Below, one piece after another: positions 8,068 through 14,696 of a stretch of DNA of 64,000 nucleotides. The translations under genes were made by a program, and so were the position numbers. This stretch comes from Haloplanus rubicundus. Lineage in GTDB: Archaea > Halobacteriota > Halobacteria > Halobacteriales > Haloferacaceae. The DNA is taken from positions 3,162,001 through 3,226,000 of the forward strand of contig NZ_CP031148.1 of assembly GCF_003342675.1 (NCBI RefSeq). The letters are read 5' to 3'. Positions within the stretch are counted from its first letter, which is position 1; each line of letters opens with the position of its first letter. The notes below the pieces were generated by a model. It had not been told where the DNA came from. It made no database searches and was given only the letters and a program-made list of their open reading frames with translations.

Positions 8068-8679
8068 ATGACCGGTTACAGCGGGCGGCCTGACGGCGGA
8101 AACGAAACCACAATCGACCTCACCCGCGACCGGATCGACGAACTCGCGGCCGAGTACGAGGCGCGCGAACCCTTCGACCTGGTCGAGCGCGAACACGTCG
8201 AGACGGTGCCGGGCGCGTTCGCCTCGGGCGAGTTCGGACGCCGCGACGCCGAGTGGCCGGTCCAGTGGTACTACCGCCGCCGGTCCCTCCCCGACGCCAA
8301 CCGGCGCGCGGCCGAGGAGCGCTTCCTCGACAACGACTACGAGGCGATGGTCGACGCCATCCAGGGCGCCGCGGCCGCCGACTCGCTCGACGAGAAACTC
8401 GACTCGCTGACCGCGTTGGTCGGCGTCGACGTCCCCGTCGCCTCGGCGATACTGACGTTTACCCACCCGGACGCGTACGTCGCAATCGGGGAGCGCGAGT
8501 GGGACGCCCTGCGGGCGGCGGGCGAACTGGACGGTGCGTACCCCGACGCACTCGCCCCCGACGACTACGGGCGATATCTCGACGCGGTGCGACGGGTCGC
8601 CGACCGCACCGACCACGACGTCTGGACCGTCTACCGGGCGCTGTGGCGGCTGGACGCCGACGACTATAGTAGCGATTGA
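8068..8679 (+). CDS. Uncharacterised protein with helix-hairpin-helix glycosylase-like segment
   Basis: The 203-residue protein is not firmly recognised. Residues about 115-150 (LVGVDVPVASAILTF, then PDAYVAIGEREW) resemble the HhH region of DNA-glycosylase-like families, where a Gly-Val-Gly hairpin precedes a helix. No catalytic Lys/Asp pair can be assigned with confidence. The start ATG 8068 lies in the divergent gap with fdhA; an upstream extension of the frame is antisense to fdhA and not real. The last codons, encoding Y-S-S-D and the stop, lie inside dyad repeat G. Confidence 0.65.
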   Translation: MTGYSGRPDGGNETTIDLTRDRIDELAAEYEAREPFDLVEREHVETVPGAFASGEFGRRDAEWPVQWYYRRRSLPDANRRAAEERFLDNDYEAMVDAIQGAAAADSLDEKLDSLTALVGVDVPVASAILTFTHPDAYVAIGEREWDALRAAGELDGAYPDALAPDDYGRYLDAVRRVADRTDHDVWTVYRALWRLDADDYSSD

Positions 8680-8749
8680 AACTGTTTGCACGGCCGGTCG
8701 GACGCCGAACTGCGATCGGCCGTGCACTGACTTTCAATCGCTACTATAG
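8664..8749. repeat. Dyad repeat, copy G (18-bp perfect outer arms)
   Basis: The outer arm CTATAGTAGCGATTGAAA at 8664-8681 is matched exactly by its reverse complement at 8732-8749. Inner arms GCACGGCCG and CGGCCGTGC enclose a loop of about 20 nt. Both convergent genes end inside it, and each uses its arm to encode the same Tyr-Ser-Ser-Asp tail. Confidence 0.92.
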
Positions 8750-9714
8750 CGCCCGATCCGCTCGGCGTAGTTCGCGATGGTCGGATCGCTGTCGTCGACG
8801 TACTCGTTCGTCCACGCCTCGGCGGGGTCGACCGGGGATTCGAGGAGGTCCGTCTCGGCGAGCATCTCGCCCAAGTTCTCCCAGCGCCGTTCGTCGAAGT
8901 GCCCCCATCCCGCCTCGCGGACGAACTCCGTGAACTGGAGGTCCTCCGCTGAGGCGAGGAACTTCATGTGTTCGACCTCGCGGTTGTGTTCGAGCTGGGC
9001 GTTGCGGGCGATGAGCGCGTCGACGGCGCGGTCCGGGTCGTTCGTCGCCAGCTCCCAGCCGCGAGCCGTCGCCCGCAGGAACGAGCGGACCGTCTCGGGG
9101 TTCTCGGCGGCGAACTCGGGGTTGGTGACGACCGTCATCCCGTAGACGTCCAGATAGTTGCCGATCAGGAGTTCGTCGGCGACGCGGTCGTACTCGCGTT
9201 CGAGCTCCTTTCCGTTCGTGACGACGCCGACCGCGGCGTCGATGTCGCCGTCGAGCAACTGGTGTTCGACGCGATGGTGGGTGTGTTTCTGCACGTCGTC
9301 GACCTCGACGTCGTCACGGATGCCGCGGTCCTCCAGGAGCTGCAGGGTGAGGATGCGGGTCTTGGTCGCCGAGGGGCCGACCCGCCGGCCGCGAAGCTGT
9401 TCGGGCTCGGTGAACGGTTCGCCGAAGGTGTCCCGGAGCGTGTAGATGGTCGCCGGTGTCTTCTGACTGACCGCGGCGACGGCGAGGGGTTCGAGCCCCT
9501 GACTCCGGACCGAGAGCACCGCGCTCCCGCCCGAGAGGCCGAGGTCGCTCCGCCCCTTGGCGGTCTGTTCGGCGGCGAAGGGGGAGCCGTGGCCCTCGAC
9601 GAACTCCACGTCGAGGCCCTCGTCGGCGTAGAATCCCTCTTCGCGCGCGAGGAAGTACGGCGCCTGGAAGCCGTTCGGTTCCCAGTTCAACTGGAAGGTG
9701 ACGGTTTCGGTCAT
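8734..9714 (-). CDS. NMT1/THI5-family substrate-binding-like protein without signal peptide
   Basis: The 326-residue protein has the periplasmic-binding fold of the nitrate/sulfonate/THI5 group: LNWEPNGFQAPYF at residues 8-20, FYADEGLDVEFV, the GRRVGPSATKTR hinge region and GDIDAAVGVVTNG. It begins directly with the mature-type sequence, with no Tat, Sec or lipobox segment, so it should be cytoplasmic. No permease or ATPase gene is near. Its start overlaps the stop of the next upstream gene by 4 bp. It may be an enzyme on this fold (compare THI5 and MqnA/MqnD) or a ligand-binding accessory protein. The motif is shared with the regulator at the window start. Confidence 0.8.
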   Translation of the reverse strand: MTETVTFQLNWEPNGFQAPYFLAREEGFYADEGLDVEFVEGHGSPFAAEQTAKGRSDLGLSGGSAVLSVRSQGLEPLAVAAVSQKTPATIYTLRDTFGEPFTEPEQLRGRRVGPSATKTRILTLQLLEDRGIRDDVEVDDVQKHTHHRVEHQLLDGDIDAAVGVVTNGKELEREYDRVADELLIGNYLDVYGMTVVTNPEFAAENPETVRSFLRATARGWELATNDPDRAVDALIARNAQLEHNREVEHMKFLASAEDLQFTEFVREAGWGHFDERRWENLGEMLAETDLLESPVDPAEAWTNEYVDDSDPTIANYAERIGRYSSD

Positions 9715-10703
9715 GGGTCTACCTCGAAGGTGCCGTCGGGTATCTCCTCGACGCCGAGGGCCTCGGCGCCGGCCACGGACTTCAGGTGATCGAACAGCCG
9801 GTACATGCCGTCGACCTGCTCGTCGTCCCAGTCGCGGACGACCATCTCCCGCCAGCCGTCACGGACCGCGCGCATCACGTCCGGATCGTCGTAGCTCATG
9901 AGTTTCTCGCTGATCTCCTCCCAGATCTCGTCGTCCTCGACGAGTTTGTCCACCGCGTCGCGGTAGGCGTCGGCGAACGCCCGCACCGTCTCGCGTTGCT
10001 CGTCGAGATACTCCCCGCTCGTGAGGAACGCGGCGAGGGGGAGTTTGTCGTCCGTCTCGGAGAGCCGCTGGACCAACTCCGAGACGGGCATGACGTTCTC
10101 GAACGGCCCCGTCTCCGTGATCTCGGGGATGATCTGCCAGAACTGGAAGCCGGCGTCGACCTCCCCCTCCTCGATCATGCGGGTGAGTTCGACCTTCGAG
10201 CCGGCCTCGACGGGCGTCGCCGTCTCGTCGGGGTCGAAGTCGTGGAACTCACGGCAGGCCGCCCGCGTCAGAATCCAGTTCTTGTCGAGGCGGCGGACGA
10301 CCCCGATGCGCTTGCCCGAGAGGTCCTCCAACCCCTCGATGTCGGAGTCCTCGGGGGCGACGAGGCCGCCGACGGTCCGCCCGTACGGGTGGAAGGCGAC
10401 GATGTCGGCCCCCTCGGCACGTTCGCGGGCGATGGAGATGTAGTCGATGTCGATGAGGTCGGCGTGACCCTCCTGCAGCTGAGCCTCCACCGTCTCGATA
10501 CCGTCTTCGAGGGCGTCGGAGACGAGCTGGACGTCGAGGTGGAAGCCGTGGTCGTGGTCGAAGCCGAAGCGCTTGATCGTGTAGAGCAGGTAGCGCGGAC
10601 TCCCGTTGTGCTCGAAGCGGGCGCGCATGGTCGGCAGGTCGCCCGGGTCGTCGTGGTACTCGTCGAGGGCCGCCTGCTGGGCGTCGACGTGGTCCCGACT
10701 CAT
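9711..10703 (-). CDS. SBP-fold protein, paralogue 2 of the 330-residue pair, no signal peptide
   Basis: The 330-residue protein is clearly related along its whole length to the product of 10853-11845 and needs no gaps to align. Shared blocks include RDHVDAQQAA, MRARFEHNGSPRYLLY, PYGRTVGGLVAP and RRLDKNWILTRAACRE. GEVDAGFQFWQI is typical of SBP-like folds. It lacks any export signal. It follows a short remnant ORF (10700-10795) and a copy of the 12.7-kb promoter, so it appears to be the surviving half of a duplicated two-gene unit. The stop overlaps the ATG of 8734-9714. No function is known; enzymes such as 4,5-dihydroxyphthalate decarboxylase share this fold. Confidence 0.75.
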   Translation of the reverse strand: MSRDHVDAQQAALDEYHDDPGDLPTMRARFEHNGSPRYLLYTIKRFGFDHDHGFHLDVQLVSDALEDGIETVEAQLQEGHADLIDIDYISIARERAEGADIVAFHPYGRTVGGLVAPEDSDIEGLEDLSGKRIGVVRRLDKNWILTRAACREFHDFDPDETATPVEAGSKVELTRMIEEGEVDAGFQFWQIIPEITETGPFENVMPVSELVQRLSETDDKLPLAAFLTSGEYLDEQRETVRAFADAYRDAVDKLVEDDEIWEEISEKLMSYDDPDVMRAVRDGWREMVVRDWDDEQVDGMYRLFDHLKSVAGAEALGVEEIPDGTFEVDP

Positions 10704-10795
10704 CGGTCCCCGCGGGCGGGTGTGGTCGTCCGTCTGGTCGACTCGGTGGCGCCGCGAGCGGTGGCAGGCGCCGCGATACTCTCGTCGGTCGGCAT
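10700..10795 (-). pseudogene. 31-codon remnant of a duplicated SBP-like gene
   Basis: The reading frame starts MPTDESI, which lines up with MSATETI at the start of the 11846-12742 gene. The ATG sits 26 nt below the same ATAAAA-type TATA box and the same GGGTACGACT segment in both places. After seven codons the similarity stops and the frame runs into the next ATG by an ATGA overlap. I read it as the front of a deleted gene copy. It may still be translated from a leaderless message and couple to the gene below. Confidence 0.55.
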
Positions 10796-10826
10796 ACCCG
10801 CAGGGTACGACTGGACCGTGATAAAA

Positions 10827-10838
10827 TTTCCTTGGAAA
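10827..10838. promoter_or_regulatory. Operator-like palindrome TTTCC-TT-GGAAA beside TATA box
   Basis: The palindrome directly abuts the ATAAAA TATA box (10821-10826, read on the minus strand as TTTTAT). The same arrangement is found at 12774-12786, and both are followed downstream by GGGTACGACT. This suggests one regulator acting on both units. Confidence 0.55.
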
Positions 10839-10852
10839 CGTTCAATAGCGAA

Positions 10853-11845
10853 TCACGGATTCGGCTGGAGGGTGCCCTCGGGAATCCCGTCGACGCCGAG
10901 CGCGTCCGCGCCGGCGACGGATTTCAGGTGGTCGAACAGCCGGTACATCCCGTCTACGCTCCCCGCGTCCCAATCGCGGACGACCATGTCGCGCCAGCCG
11001 TCCCGGATCGAACGCGTCACGTCCGGGTCGTCGGTTCGCATCAGGCGGTCGCCGACCTCGATCCAGAGGTCGTCGTCCGCGAGGAGACGGTCGACGCCGT
11101 CCCGGGCGGCCGCGGCGAAGCCCCGAACCGCCTCGGGGTGGTCGTCGAGATACGACTCCCCGGTGAGAAAGACCGCGATGGGGAGCTTGCGGTCGGTTCC
11201 GGCGAGTCGCTGGACCAGATCGGCGACCGGGAACACTTCGACATAGGGGCCGGTGCGCGTGAGTTCGGGCACGAGCGGCCAGAACTGGAAGCCGGCGTCG
11301 ACCTCGCCGTCACGGATCAGCCGCGTGAGGTCGTCCCGGGAGTCGGCCTCGACGAGCGTCACCGTCTCCGCGGGGTCGAAGTCGTGGTACTCGCGGCAGG
11401 CCGCCCGCGTCAGGATCCAGTTCTTGTCCAGCCGCCGGGTCACCCCGATCCGGTGACCCGACAGGTCGGCGAGCCCCCCGATGTCGGTATCGTCCGGTGC
11501 GACGAGGCCGCCCACGGTCCGCCCGTACGGGTGGACCGCGACGACGTTCGCGCCCGCAGCGCGCTCCCGGGCGACGGAGAGGTAGTCGGTGTCGACGAGG
11601 TCGGTGTCGCCCGCGTCCAGCCGGTGGCGGATGGTCTCCATGCCGCTCTCCAGTTCGTCGGTGACGAGATCGACGTCGAGGTGGAAGCCGTGATGGTGGT
11701 CGAAGCCGAACCGCTTGATCGCGTAGAGAAGATACCGGGGGCTGCCGTTGTGTTCGAACCGCGCGCGCATCACCGGTCGGTCGCCGGGGTCACCGCGGTG
11801 CGCGTTGAACGCCGCTTGCTGGGCGTCGACGTGATCCCGATTCAT
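10853..11845 (-). CDS. SBP-fold protein, paralogue 1 of the 330-residue pair, no signal peptide
   Basis: The 330-residue protein is the close paralogue of 9711-10703. Features seen include a His-rich segment FGFDHHHGFHLD near residue 50, GRTVGGLVAP, RLDKNWILTRAACRE and GEVDAGFQFW. There is no signal peptide or membrane segment. Its ATG directly abuts the stop codon of the 11846-12742 gene, so the two are translated from one message. Whether it binds, carries or converts a small molecule is not known. The two paralogues differ most in the last third, which may reflect different partners or ligands. Confidence 0.75.
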   Translation of the reverse strand: MNRDHVDAQQAAFNAHRGDPGDRPVMRARFEHNGSPRYLLYAIKRFGFDHHHGFHLDVDLVTDELESGMETIRHRLDAGDTDLVDTDYLSVARERAAGANVVAVHPYGRTVGGLVAPDDTDIGGLADLSGHRIGVTRRLDKNWILTRAACREYHDFDPAETVTLVEADSRDDLTRLIRDGEVDAGFQFWPLVPELTRTGPYVEVFPVADLVQRLAGTDRKLPIAVFLTGESYLDDHPEAVRGFAAAARDGVDRLLADDDLWIEVGDRLMRTDDPDVTRSIRDGWRDMVVRDWDAGSVDGMYRLFDHLKSVAGADALGVDGIPEGTLQPNP

Positions 11846-12742
11846 TCACCGCAGCGGCGAGACGATGGCGTCGATATCGGCGTCGTCGTCGATCAACTGC
11901 CGCCGTTTCATCCAGTCGAGGTGGTAGTCGAGGTCCTCGCGGTCCGCGAGCTCGGGCACCTCGTACTCGGGCACCTTGATGGCCTCGCGGACGGCGTCGA
12001 CGTCGACCGACTCGAAGAGGTCCGGCGCGACTTCCTCGTCCTTCCAGAGCATATCGAGGTACTGGTCACGATAGGCGTTGGGGTCGGCGTTGATTTCTTC
12101 GACCGCGCGGCGGTACGCGCGCATGAACGCGTCGAGCGTCTCGCCCTCCAGCGCTTCGGCGCCGACGACGCCCATGTGGTTCTCGAACTCCAGCACCTTC
12201 TCGAAGCCGAGGTGTTCGGCGAGGGTGATGTGCGGGTCCAGAAGCGTGACGGCCTCGACCTCGCCGTCGCGGAGCGCGCGCAGGCGGTCGGTCGGCATCC
12301 CGTGCCCCTCGATGACGACCTCGTCCTCATTCATGTGCTCTTCGAGCGCCCGAATGGCCGTGTACTCCTGTCCCGTGCGTCGGTTGACGCCGACGGGAAC
12401 GTTCGCCAGATCGGAGGGCTCCTCGATCCCCGAATCGGGGCGGACGAACACCGCGTACGGCTGGTCCGCGAAGGTCCCCTTGGCGACGATGCGTCCGTCG
12501 TCGAACTCCCACGTCCGCTTCAGGCTCTCCCACTTGCAGATGGGGTAGAGGTCGACGTCGTTGTCGCCGGTCAGCGTCTCCTCGGCCGGGATGTACTTGT
12601 TCGTCACGCAGGTGCGGTCCCGCTCGATCAAGTCGACGTCCAACCCCTCGTCGGCGAAGTAGCCACGCTCCGCGGCGACGCGCTGGGGGAGCATGAACGA
12701 GAACGGCAGGTGGAACACTCTGATCGTCTCGGTTGCTGACAT
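11846..12742 (-). CDS. SBP-fold protein (PhtD/THI5-like), first gene of the operon, no signal peptide
   Basis: The 298-residue protein opens with IRVFHLPFSFMLPQRVAAERGYFADEG, a typical first strand and helix of the SBP fold, starting at residue 7. It continues with RPDSGIEEPSDLANVPVGVN and RDGEVEAVTLLDPH. It lacks the Tat or Sec export signal seen in true haloarchaeal transport SBPs. It heads a minus-strand operon under a promoter with a TATA box at 12768-12773 and an operator-like palindrome at 12774-12786. The ATG is 26 nt below the TATA box, so the message is probably leaderless. The distant likeness to 4,5-dihydroxyphthalate decarboxylase-type enzymes is suggestive only. Confidence 0.75.
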   Translation of the reverse strand: MSATETIRVFHLPFSFMLPQRVAAERGYFADEGLDVDLIERDRTCVTNKYIPAEETLTGDNDVDLYPICKWESLKRTWEFDDGRIVAKGTFADQPYAVFVRPDSGIEEPSDLANVPVGVNRRTGQEYTAIRALEEHMNEDEVVIEGHGMPTDRLRALRDGEVEAVTLLDPHITLAEHLGFEKVLEFENHMGVVGAEALEGETLDAFMRAYRRAVEEINADPNAYRDQYLDMLWKDEEVAPDLFESVDVDAVREAIKVPEYEVPELADREDLDYHLDWMKRRQLIDDDADIDAIVSPLR

Positions 12743-12773
12743 ACGAACTGGGTACGACTATATACACATAAAA

Positions 12774-12786
12774 GTTCCTTAGGAAC
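12774..12786. promoter_or_regulatory. Operator-like palindrome GTTCC-TTA-GGAAC between divergent promoters
   Basis: The palindrome lies next to the TATA box of the SBP-like operon (minus strand) and just before a TATA-like TTTATTACTAA for the cupin gene (plus strand). A near copy is at 10827-10838. It is well placed to control both directions. Confidence 0.6.
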
Positions 12787-12830
12787 CTTTATTACTAACA
12801 CGCAGTATCGGAGACGTGGGGACAGATCGA

Positions 12831-13172
12831 ATGAGGCGGATCAACGACGAGCGAGCGGACGACGTGGAGGTCGCAGACGGCGTCTATCTCGCCGACCTCA
12901 CGGCCGGCGAGCGGGCGTCGATGAAACACTGGCGGGTCGAACCGGGAGCCACGCTCCCCGTCCACCGGCACGACAACGAGCAGATCGGTTACATGATTCG
13001 GGGGACTCTCACGGCGATCACCGAAGACGAGGAGGTCACGCTCCGTCCGGGCGACTCGTACGTGTTCGCGTCCGGCGAACTCCACGGTGCCGAAAATCGC
13101 GGAGACGAACCCGCGGTCGGCATCGGCGTCCTCTCGCCGCCACGTTCCGATCCGGACTGGAAGCAGTCGTAG
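12831..13172 (+). CDS. Small single-domain cupin
   Basis: The 113-residue protein is one cupin barrel. The two metal-binding motifs are clear: PVHRHDNEQIGYMIRG (His, His, Glu) and, 35 residues later, a final His in SGELHGAEN. It could bind a metal and a small acid, or act as a simple isomerase or decarboxylase. It is divergent from the SBP-like operon and shares its control region, so it probably belongs to the same pathway. ATG 12831 was chosen over GTG 12816; both are in frame. Confidence 0.8.
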   Translation: MRRINDERADDVEVADGVYLADLTAGERASMKHWRVEPGATLPVHRHDNEQIGYMIRGTLTAITEDEEVTLRPGDSYVFASGELHGAENRGDEPAVGIGVLSPPRSDPDWKQS

Positions 13173-13493: not shown

Positions 13494-14696
13494 ATGGACG
13501 CGAACGACCGCGGCGTGGTGAAGTTCACGGCGCTTGCGCACGCGCTCTTTCACACCTACGAGCTGTCCATACCCCTCCTCATCGGGGTCTGGATGGCCGA
13601 ATTCGACGCGTCGGCGGCGCTCGTCGGAACGGTCGTCGGCGCGGGCTACGCACTCGTCGGACTCGGCGCCCCCGTCAGCGGCGTCCTCTCGGATCGACTC
13701 GGCTCCCGACAACTCATCTCCCTGTCCATGGTCGGGATGGGGTCCGGGTTCGCGCTCGTGAGCCTCGCCGACGGCGTCGTCGTCCTCGGCGCCGCGATGC
13801 TGGTGTGGGGGGCGTTCGCCAGCCTCTATCACCCCGCGGGCCTCTCGCTGATCAGTCGCTCGGCCGAGGAGCGAGGCACCGTCTTCGCGTACCACGGCGC
13901 CGGCGGCAACGTCGGCACCGCGGCCGGGCCGCTCGTGACTGCGCTCCTCCTGCTGTCGGTCGACTGGCAAGTCGCGGTCGGACTGCTCGCCGTCCCCGCG
14001 TTCGTCGCGGCGCTCCTCGGCTCGCGCGTCGAGTTCGACGCCGTCGGCGGCGACGGGGCGTCGGCGTCGACATCGCTCGGCGCGGAGCTACGGCAAACGG
14101 CCGCCGAGTCGCGGGCGCTGTTCGGCGCCGCTTTCACCGTCGCGTTCGTCGCCGTCCTCCTGTACGGCACGTACTACCGGGGCTTGCTCACCTTCCTCCC
14201 CGACGTGTTGGCCGAGTCGCCGTCGCTCGTCCCCGTCGACCTGTTCGGCCGCGAAATCGACCCCGCACAGTACGTCTACACCGGACTGTTGACCGTCGGC
14301 ATCGGCGGCCAGTACGCCGGCGGACGGCTCACCGACCGCGTCCCGAGTACGACCGCGTTCGTCGCCGCCTTCGCGACGCTGGCCGTCCTCGCGGTGGCGT
14401 TCCCGGTGGCACGAACCGTGGGCGTCGTCCCGCTGGTCGCCGTCTGTCTCGCGCTCGGGGTCGTCGTCTACGGCACCGCACCGATCTATCAGGTGGTCAT
14501 CGCGGAACACGCCGCGGCCGACGCCCACGGCCGTTCGTACGGCTTCACCTACCTCGCGATGTTCGGCGTCGGGGCGGCCGGCGCGTCCGTCGCCGGGGTC
14601 GTGCTCACACACGCCACCAGCGGCGTCCTGTTCGGGGTGCTCGGCGCCGTCGCCACCGTCGGCTGTGGCTTCGTGCTCTGGCTCCGACGGCTGTAG
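13494..14696 (+). CDS. MFS transporter
   Basis: The 400-residue protein has about 12 hydrophobic segments in two halves, with a long cytoplasmic loop near residues 180-205. The loop after helix 2 carries GVLSDRLGSRQ, the MFS signature motif A (G-x3-D-R-x-G-x-R). It is probably a proton- or sodium-driven exporter or importer; the substrate cannot be predicted. It is divergent from the AOR remnant and followed 40 bp later by a VOC gene. Confidence 0.88.
   Translation: MDANDRGVVKFTALAHALFHTYELSIPLLIGVWMAEFDASAALVGTVVGAGYALVGLGAPVSGVLSDRLGSRQLISLSMVGMGSGFALVSLADGVVVLGAAMLVWGAFASLYHPAGLSLISRSAEERGTVFAYHGAGGNVGTAAGPLVTALLLLSVDWQVAVGLLAVPAFVAALLGSRVEFDAVGGDGASASTSLGAELRQTAAESRALFGAAFTVAFVAVLLYGTYYRGLLTFLPDVLAESPSLVPVDLFGREIDPAQYVYTGLLTVGIGGQYAGGRLTDRVPSTTAFVAAFATLAVLAVAFPVARTVGVVPLVAVCLALGVVVYGTAPIYQVVIAEHAAADAHGRSYGFTYLAMFGVGAAGASVAGVVLTHATSGVLFGVLGAVATVGCGFVLWLRRL

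Follow-up and report, generated by a model that had tools for sequence, protein, structure and literature searches.

Short open reading frames (ORFs) that hand ribosomes to the next gene are best described in mycobacteria, where leaderless coupled small ORFs of fewer than 50 codons share an RTGA overlap with the main gene and keep their architecture but not their peptide (PMC4633059). A short ORF can also be gained at a gene start through insertion of the mycobacterial mobile repeat MIRU, coupled at -4 nt, and a review covering these elements proposes that short ORFs deliver ribosomes, citing inserted repeats that do so (PMC12548453). In the haloarchaeon Haloferax volcanii, 72% of protein-coding transcripts are leaderless, GUG starts included, and small ORFs of 15 to 31 amino acids (aa) lie in long 5' untranslated regions (5'-UTRs) (PMC4983044). 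Shine-Dalgarno motifs do not initiate translation in leaders of this species (PMC3986360), and strict termination-reinitiation coupling was reported for 9/9 of its gene pairs (PMC6728339). The distances involved are short: a gap of about 20 nt nearly abolishes coupling, and in Escherichia coli the last 15 nt of the upstream gene are enough for it (PMC10666635).

Here, we describe a short ORF ahead of gene B2 in Haloplanus, found in a 64-kb stretch of genomic DNA that was analyzed as a whole (the window), which resembles each of these cases in part (Table 1). It would fall in the class of leaderless coupled ORFs known from mycobacteria, having a leaderless-type start, fewer than 50 codons, an RTGA overlap with the main gene, and a conserved architecture with an unconserved peptide, but it differs from them in its archaeal TATA/BRE promoter and in being traced to the start of a duplicated gene, and its leaderless start is predicted from spacing (PMC4633059). 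The 4-nt ATGA overlap, the short distance requirement, and the haloarchaeal setting are shared with the overlapping pairs of H. volcanii, whose upstream partner is a full gene rather than a stub of 30 to 39 codons without a conserved product (PMC6728339, PMC10666635). Like the 5'-UTR ORFs of H. volcanii, it stands ahead of ordinary genes; those peptides, however, are acidic and the part of that report considered here describes no overlap coupling, whereas the isoelectric points (pI) of the Haloplanus peptides range from 5.0 to 12.0 (PMC4983044). The gain of a short ORF at a gene start, coupled at -4 nt, recalls MIRU, except that MIRU is a mobile repeat insertion and the Haloplanus stub appears to be the decay of a duplicated gene (PMC12548453). 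Leaderless coupled ORFs are therefore known from mycobacteria, and what appears new is the occurrence in an archaeal genus, across which the arrangement is conserved, together with an origin by decay of a duplicate; no publication on this locus was found in the open-licence literature. We put the probability at about 70% that a duplication was followed by decay of the second copy of gene A (A'), with the short ORF serving as a leaderless ribosome entry that replaces the ancestral termination-reinitiation coupling of A to B.

TABLE 1 Features of the gene cluster, with positions counted from the first base of the window
Feature	Position	Strand	Description
Gene C	8734..9714	-	326 aa, NMT1/THI5-like; 4-nt overlap with B2 (ATGA)
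Gene B2	9711..10703	-	330 aa, NMT1/THI5-like, predicted PqqT-like fold
Short ORF	10700..10795	-	31 codons, of which the first ~7 trace to gene A; 4 nt shared between its stop and the B2 start (ATGA, 10700-10703)
P' spacer, TATA box to ATG	10796..10820	-	Unusually conserved; GGTAC-N4-GTACC-like (imperfect in this genome) and TACCC-TGC-GGGTA inverted repeats; candidate operator
P' core promoter	10821..10838	-	BRE-like GGAA, TATA box (TTTTAT on minus strand), and residual TTCC arm
Gene B1	10853..11845	-	330 aa, NMT1/THI5-like paralogue of B2
Gene A	11846..12742	-	298 aa, NMT1/THI5-like
P, divergent promoter of A (minus) and cupin gene (plus)	12743..12815		ATAAAA 12768-12773 (TATA box of A, reversed) and TTTATT 12788-12793 (TATA box of cupin gene) flank GTTCCTTAGGAACC
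Cupin gene	12816..13172	+	118 aa, divergent neighbor of A, kept in relatives; start codon uncertain
GGGTACGACT (plus-strand letters)	10803-10812 and 12750-12759		
ATAAAA TATA box	10821-10826 and 12768-12773		
TTCC/GGAA inverted repeat	10827-10838 and 12774-12786		Arms 2 nt apart in the first, 3 nt in the second
ATG, first base	10795 and 12742		26 positions from TATA box in both

The history of the cluster is clearest from its layout in relatives. Among named genomes, 33 loci were found by scanning, two of them from Haloplanus, and a scan of 170 genomes of the family found B in 15, namely, 10 Haloplanus genomes with two copies and five others with one. Outside Haloplanus, the order is cupin<-P->A-B-C, with a single B directly after A, in 31/31 loci. 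Within the genus, all 10 loci read A-B1-[P' + short ORF]-B2-C; they represent 10 of the 12 Haloplanus genomes in the set, B being absent from the other two (G072 and G076). In the B tree, B1 forms one clade, B2 forms another, and the two are sisters in a joint clade, each with support of 100/99, and B1 has evolved faster than B2 (tip branches of 0.065 to 0.27 versus 0.017 to 0.094). As judged from these two fully supported sister clades, there is one duplication of B, which predates the radiation of the sampled Haloplanus species and lies at the base of the genus; horizontal import of B1 is ruled out, since B1 and B2 are sisters. The original prediction, made from the window alone, had proposed a duplicated promoter-operon unit whose second gene survives as a paralogue, and both the contrast between single-copy outgroup loci and the Haloplanus layout and the sister clades bear it out. 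B1 and B2 are 69% identical over 330 aa.

The promoter part of this unit recurs on the minus strand, which is the sense strand of motifs and genes alike. The two motif sets (10803-10838 and 12750-12786) have equal spacing, both from GGGTACGACT to the TATA box and from the TATA box to the ATG. Both sets of ordered motifs that had been predicted are present, the first beginning at 10803 instead of 10801, and the 26-nt step between TATA box and ATG, as well as the first codons (MPTDESI against MSATETI), read as claimed. With two mismatches allowed, the window holds exactly two copies of the composite GGGTACGACT-N8-ATAAAA, and 100 shuffles gave none. Extended through the ATG, the copy-1 motif is unique in the 3.77-Mb genome at zero mismatches, and at up to three mismatches its only other matches in the genome are two, each with three mismatches. 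A regulon using the spacer motif was sought in two genome scans and rejected, as these led essentially to this place alone.

At P, back-to-back TATA boxes face apart with BRE-like elements between them in 10/10 Haloplanus genomes and 30/31 outgroups, and a search of the window matched the motif at P on both strands. The simplest reading is that the TTCC/GGAA palindrome is mostly the two BREs of back-to-back core promoters, that is, of a divergent promoter; the palindrome that had been predicted is present at both sites, but as a feature of its own it is largely explained by this arrangement. P' has no divergent gene; all 10 Haloplanus genomes retain its sense BRE and TATA box, and the antisense TATA box is found in 4/10, with at least three changes on the genus tree. 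The TTCC arm nevertheless stays in 9/10 P' copies, which the simple back-to-back reading leaves unexplained. The spacer of P' is also more conserved than that of P within Haloplanus (loci L061 to L069); positions -22 to -1 of archaeal promoters are usually free. These two observations favor operators, with TTCC/GGAA and/or GGTAC-N4-GTACC binding a regulator that would control P and P' together, an arrangement compatible with coupling through the short ORF. However, the outgroups as a rule have outward-facing TATA-like boxes at this place, and in many of them TTC..GAA stands between the boxes. None of the 31 outgroups has GTACC/GGTAC in the 30 nt that precede A, and nothing resembling a regulon was found for the composite in the genome, so that we regard joint control by such a regulator as a tentative idea and a rather doubtful one. 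No second copy of the P' spacer element was found elsewhere in the genome.

In the 10 Haloplanus genomes, the short ORF has 38, 38, 36, 39, 30, 39, 37, 31, 35, and 31 codons and starts 24 to 25 nt after the TATA box, with ATG in nine and GTG in one. In every one it is open, in frame, and joined to B2 by the ATGA overlap, and this distance of -4 nt is that of a coupled pair (10/10). The full independent gene in relatives that the original prediction had envisaged as its own counter-case was looked for and not seen, the ORF holding at 30 to 39 codons in all 10. Over codons 2 to 7, the consensus of the short ORF matches A at 13/18 nt, compared to a best of 10/18 among 122 ORF starts in the window; it is the consensus that carries the case for an origin from A, because the window's own short ORF/A pair scores only 10/18 over these codons. 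The body of the ORF was also considered as residual A and rejected, since nucleotide and protein profiles gave nothing above the inclusion threshold past codon 7. With homology to A limited to codons 1 to 7 instead of running along its length, the short ORF is not classed as a pseudogene of A. The first gene of the second copy is thus otherwise gone, as had been claimed, the match to A covering about seven codons with no homology beyond. The accompanying term, leftover gene start, is right about derivation from the start of A and undersells the stub, because a frame-conserved ORF overlaps the B2 start in 10/10 genomes.

What has been conserved in this ORF? By comparison of the Haloplanus sequences, its frame is kept and its peptide is not. 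Its length has changed at least seven times on the genus tree, always by a multiple of 3, and frame-blind indels would give seven in-frame changes with a probability of about 3^-7, a figure of our own arithmetic that assumes independent, frame-blind indels and uses a tree that is partly weak. The spacer from the B1 stop to the TATA box is free in length modulo 3, and all three residues occur in Haloplanus. Across the 10 genomes, stops number none in frame 1, three in frame 2, and seven in frame 3, and in the window genome the other two forward frames of the region are likewise open. A mononucleotide shuffle, which ignores relatedness, gave 0.007 for 10 open frames, and a neutral simulation on the tree at matched divergence left all 10 open with a probability of 0.16. 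Openness alone as proof of selection is rejected by this simulation, which leaves frame, start, and overlap to carry the case; the ATGA stop itself is automatic once the frame fits and the second codon of B2 begins with A.

The same probability of 0.16 would suit an inert relic, in which P' is used, B2 is translated de novo, either behind a leader of about 90 nt or on the long transcript made from P, and the ORF stays open by chance in DNA whose GC content of 63 to 77% makes stops rare. Such a relic would also show no selection on its peptide, as is the case here, but we consider it unlikely, given that the frame has survived those length changes while the nearby spacer drifted freely in length and that the start codon and the ATGA overlap are each retained in 10/10 genomes. 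As for the peptide, differences at codon positions 1/2/3 number 5/6/4 (G068/G071), 8/10/8 (G074/G077), and 6/6/8 (G075/G073) in three close pairs, among 33 pairs compared in all, that align wholly in frame; substitutions are even across codon positions, and the peptide is therefore not conserved. Although the ORF is kept in 10 species, most of which share a Glu-Ser-Pro/Thr-Arg-like stretch, this evenness, the variation in length and pI, and the lack of a consistent residue bias by eye make a working small protein or attenuating leader peptide highly improbable.

Coupling through the short ORF, the reading that we prefer, starts from the ancestral arrangement. The A-B junction lies between -8 and +7 nt in 27/31 outgroups, suggesting that A-B coupling is ancestral and that B relied on A for its ribosomes. 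In Haloplanus, the summed distances from the B1 stop to the short-ORF ATG are 46 to 157 nt, too far for coupling by the ~20-nt rule, and P' with its stub would therefore give B2-C an entry independent of A-B1. The first events are visible by comparison: a tandem duplication of [P-A-B] within the ancestral A-B-C gave P-A-B1-P'-A'-B2-C, and A' then shrank to the start codon plus some six more codons, which together with unrelated sequence make up the present ORF. The steps that we propose from there concern expression. P' would drive a second, leaderless transcript whose first base is the short-ORF ATG or lies about a nucleotide away, and the spacing agrees with such a start at 10795. Ribosomes would load on this 5' ATG, read through the short ORF as far as the ATGA overlap, and reinitiate at B2 and then, where B2 and C overlap in another ATGA, at C. 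The stub would be kept because a 5'-terminal start codon is a good loading site for haloarchaeal ribosomes, which can reinitiate only very close by; its peptide would be immaterial, and P' would separate expression of B2-C from that of A-B1. Alternatively, translation of B2 might begin de novo behind a leader of ~90 nt. In one sister pair of loci (L064 and L066, from G074 and G077), the A-B1 distance has grown to 58 to 61 nt, which would break A-B1 coupling.

Gene B has a periplasmic-binding-protein fold, that of the solute-binding proteins of ABC transporters, according to its predicted structure (pLDDT 87.7) and family match. Its closest fold is that of the PQQ-binding protein PqqT (PDB 9b1u and 9ooz; Z 36.8, 1.8 Å over 295 residues, 28% identity), from which B differs in beginning with ~22 extra residues and no evident signal peptide. 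The fold predicted for B2 thus resembles that of PqqT, and because neither B1 nor B2 has an evident signal peptide, both may bind a cofactor in the cytoplasm. No hydrophobic N terminus was seen by eye on gene B, and no cognate permease or ATPase was recognized by eye in rough ORF lists of six outgroup loci, with nine neighboring ORFs scanned against Pfam. Gene C matches THI5 and related binding proteins. In several relatives, the cupin gene adjoins a gene for an aldehyde ferredoxin oxidoreductase of the tungsten type, tungsten being the metal used by this family. The window has an MFS transporter gene (13494-14696) beside the cupin gene, and the closest aldehyde ferredoxin oxidoreductase copies lie elsewhere in the genome; the places concerned in this comparison are L010, L014, L016, and G078:C2:6153-7817. 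For the PDB code of the structural match of B, the publications listed by a literature search were all unrelated, and no open-licence publication was found that links THI5 and a solute-binding protein with aldehyde ferredoxin oxidoreductase in haloarchaea. An imperfect palindromic repeat (8664-8749) with 37-nt arms that are 86% complementary separates gene C from its convergent neighbor; it has about 10 dispersed matches in the genome and is therefore probably a small mobile or REP-like element.

Comparable coupled stubs are scarce by our count, with one among the 53 called genes of the window, the short ORF of B2 itself, and one among the 363 genes called in 389 kb from the 31 outgroups, and these counts are lower bounds from a crude caller that recovers 5/10 of the known Haloplanus cases. 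The outgroup case, at 10720-10784 on the minus strand of locus L034 of Natrinema ejinorense, is a leaderless-looking short ORF of 22 codons with a 4-nt overlap with the next gene and is possibly an independent one.

We hold it to be somewhat more probable than an even chance that a decaying gene duplicate has here become a coupler of translation that does not depend on its peptide: where transcripts are leaderless and Shine-Dalgarno starts do not work in leaders, loss of a promoter-proximal gene would leave its start codon selected as a ribosome entry. About 10 species and their single-copy outgroups would then show a route to a short upstream ORF, that of a duplicated gene eroded to its leaderless start. 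If this is true, other short coupled ORFs of haloarchaea may likewise be what remains of first genes that were lost. The Haloplanus locus lends itself to testing sharply whether start codons are retained in haloarchaea solely to load ribosomes. It also carries a warning for annotation, as a short ORF that precedes an operon may have a function even if its peptide has none.
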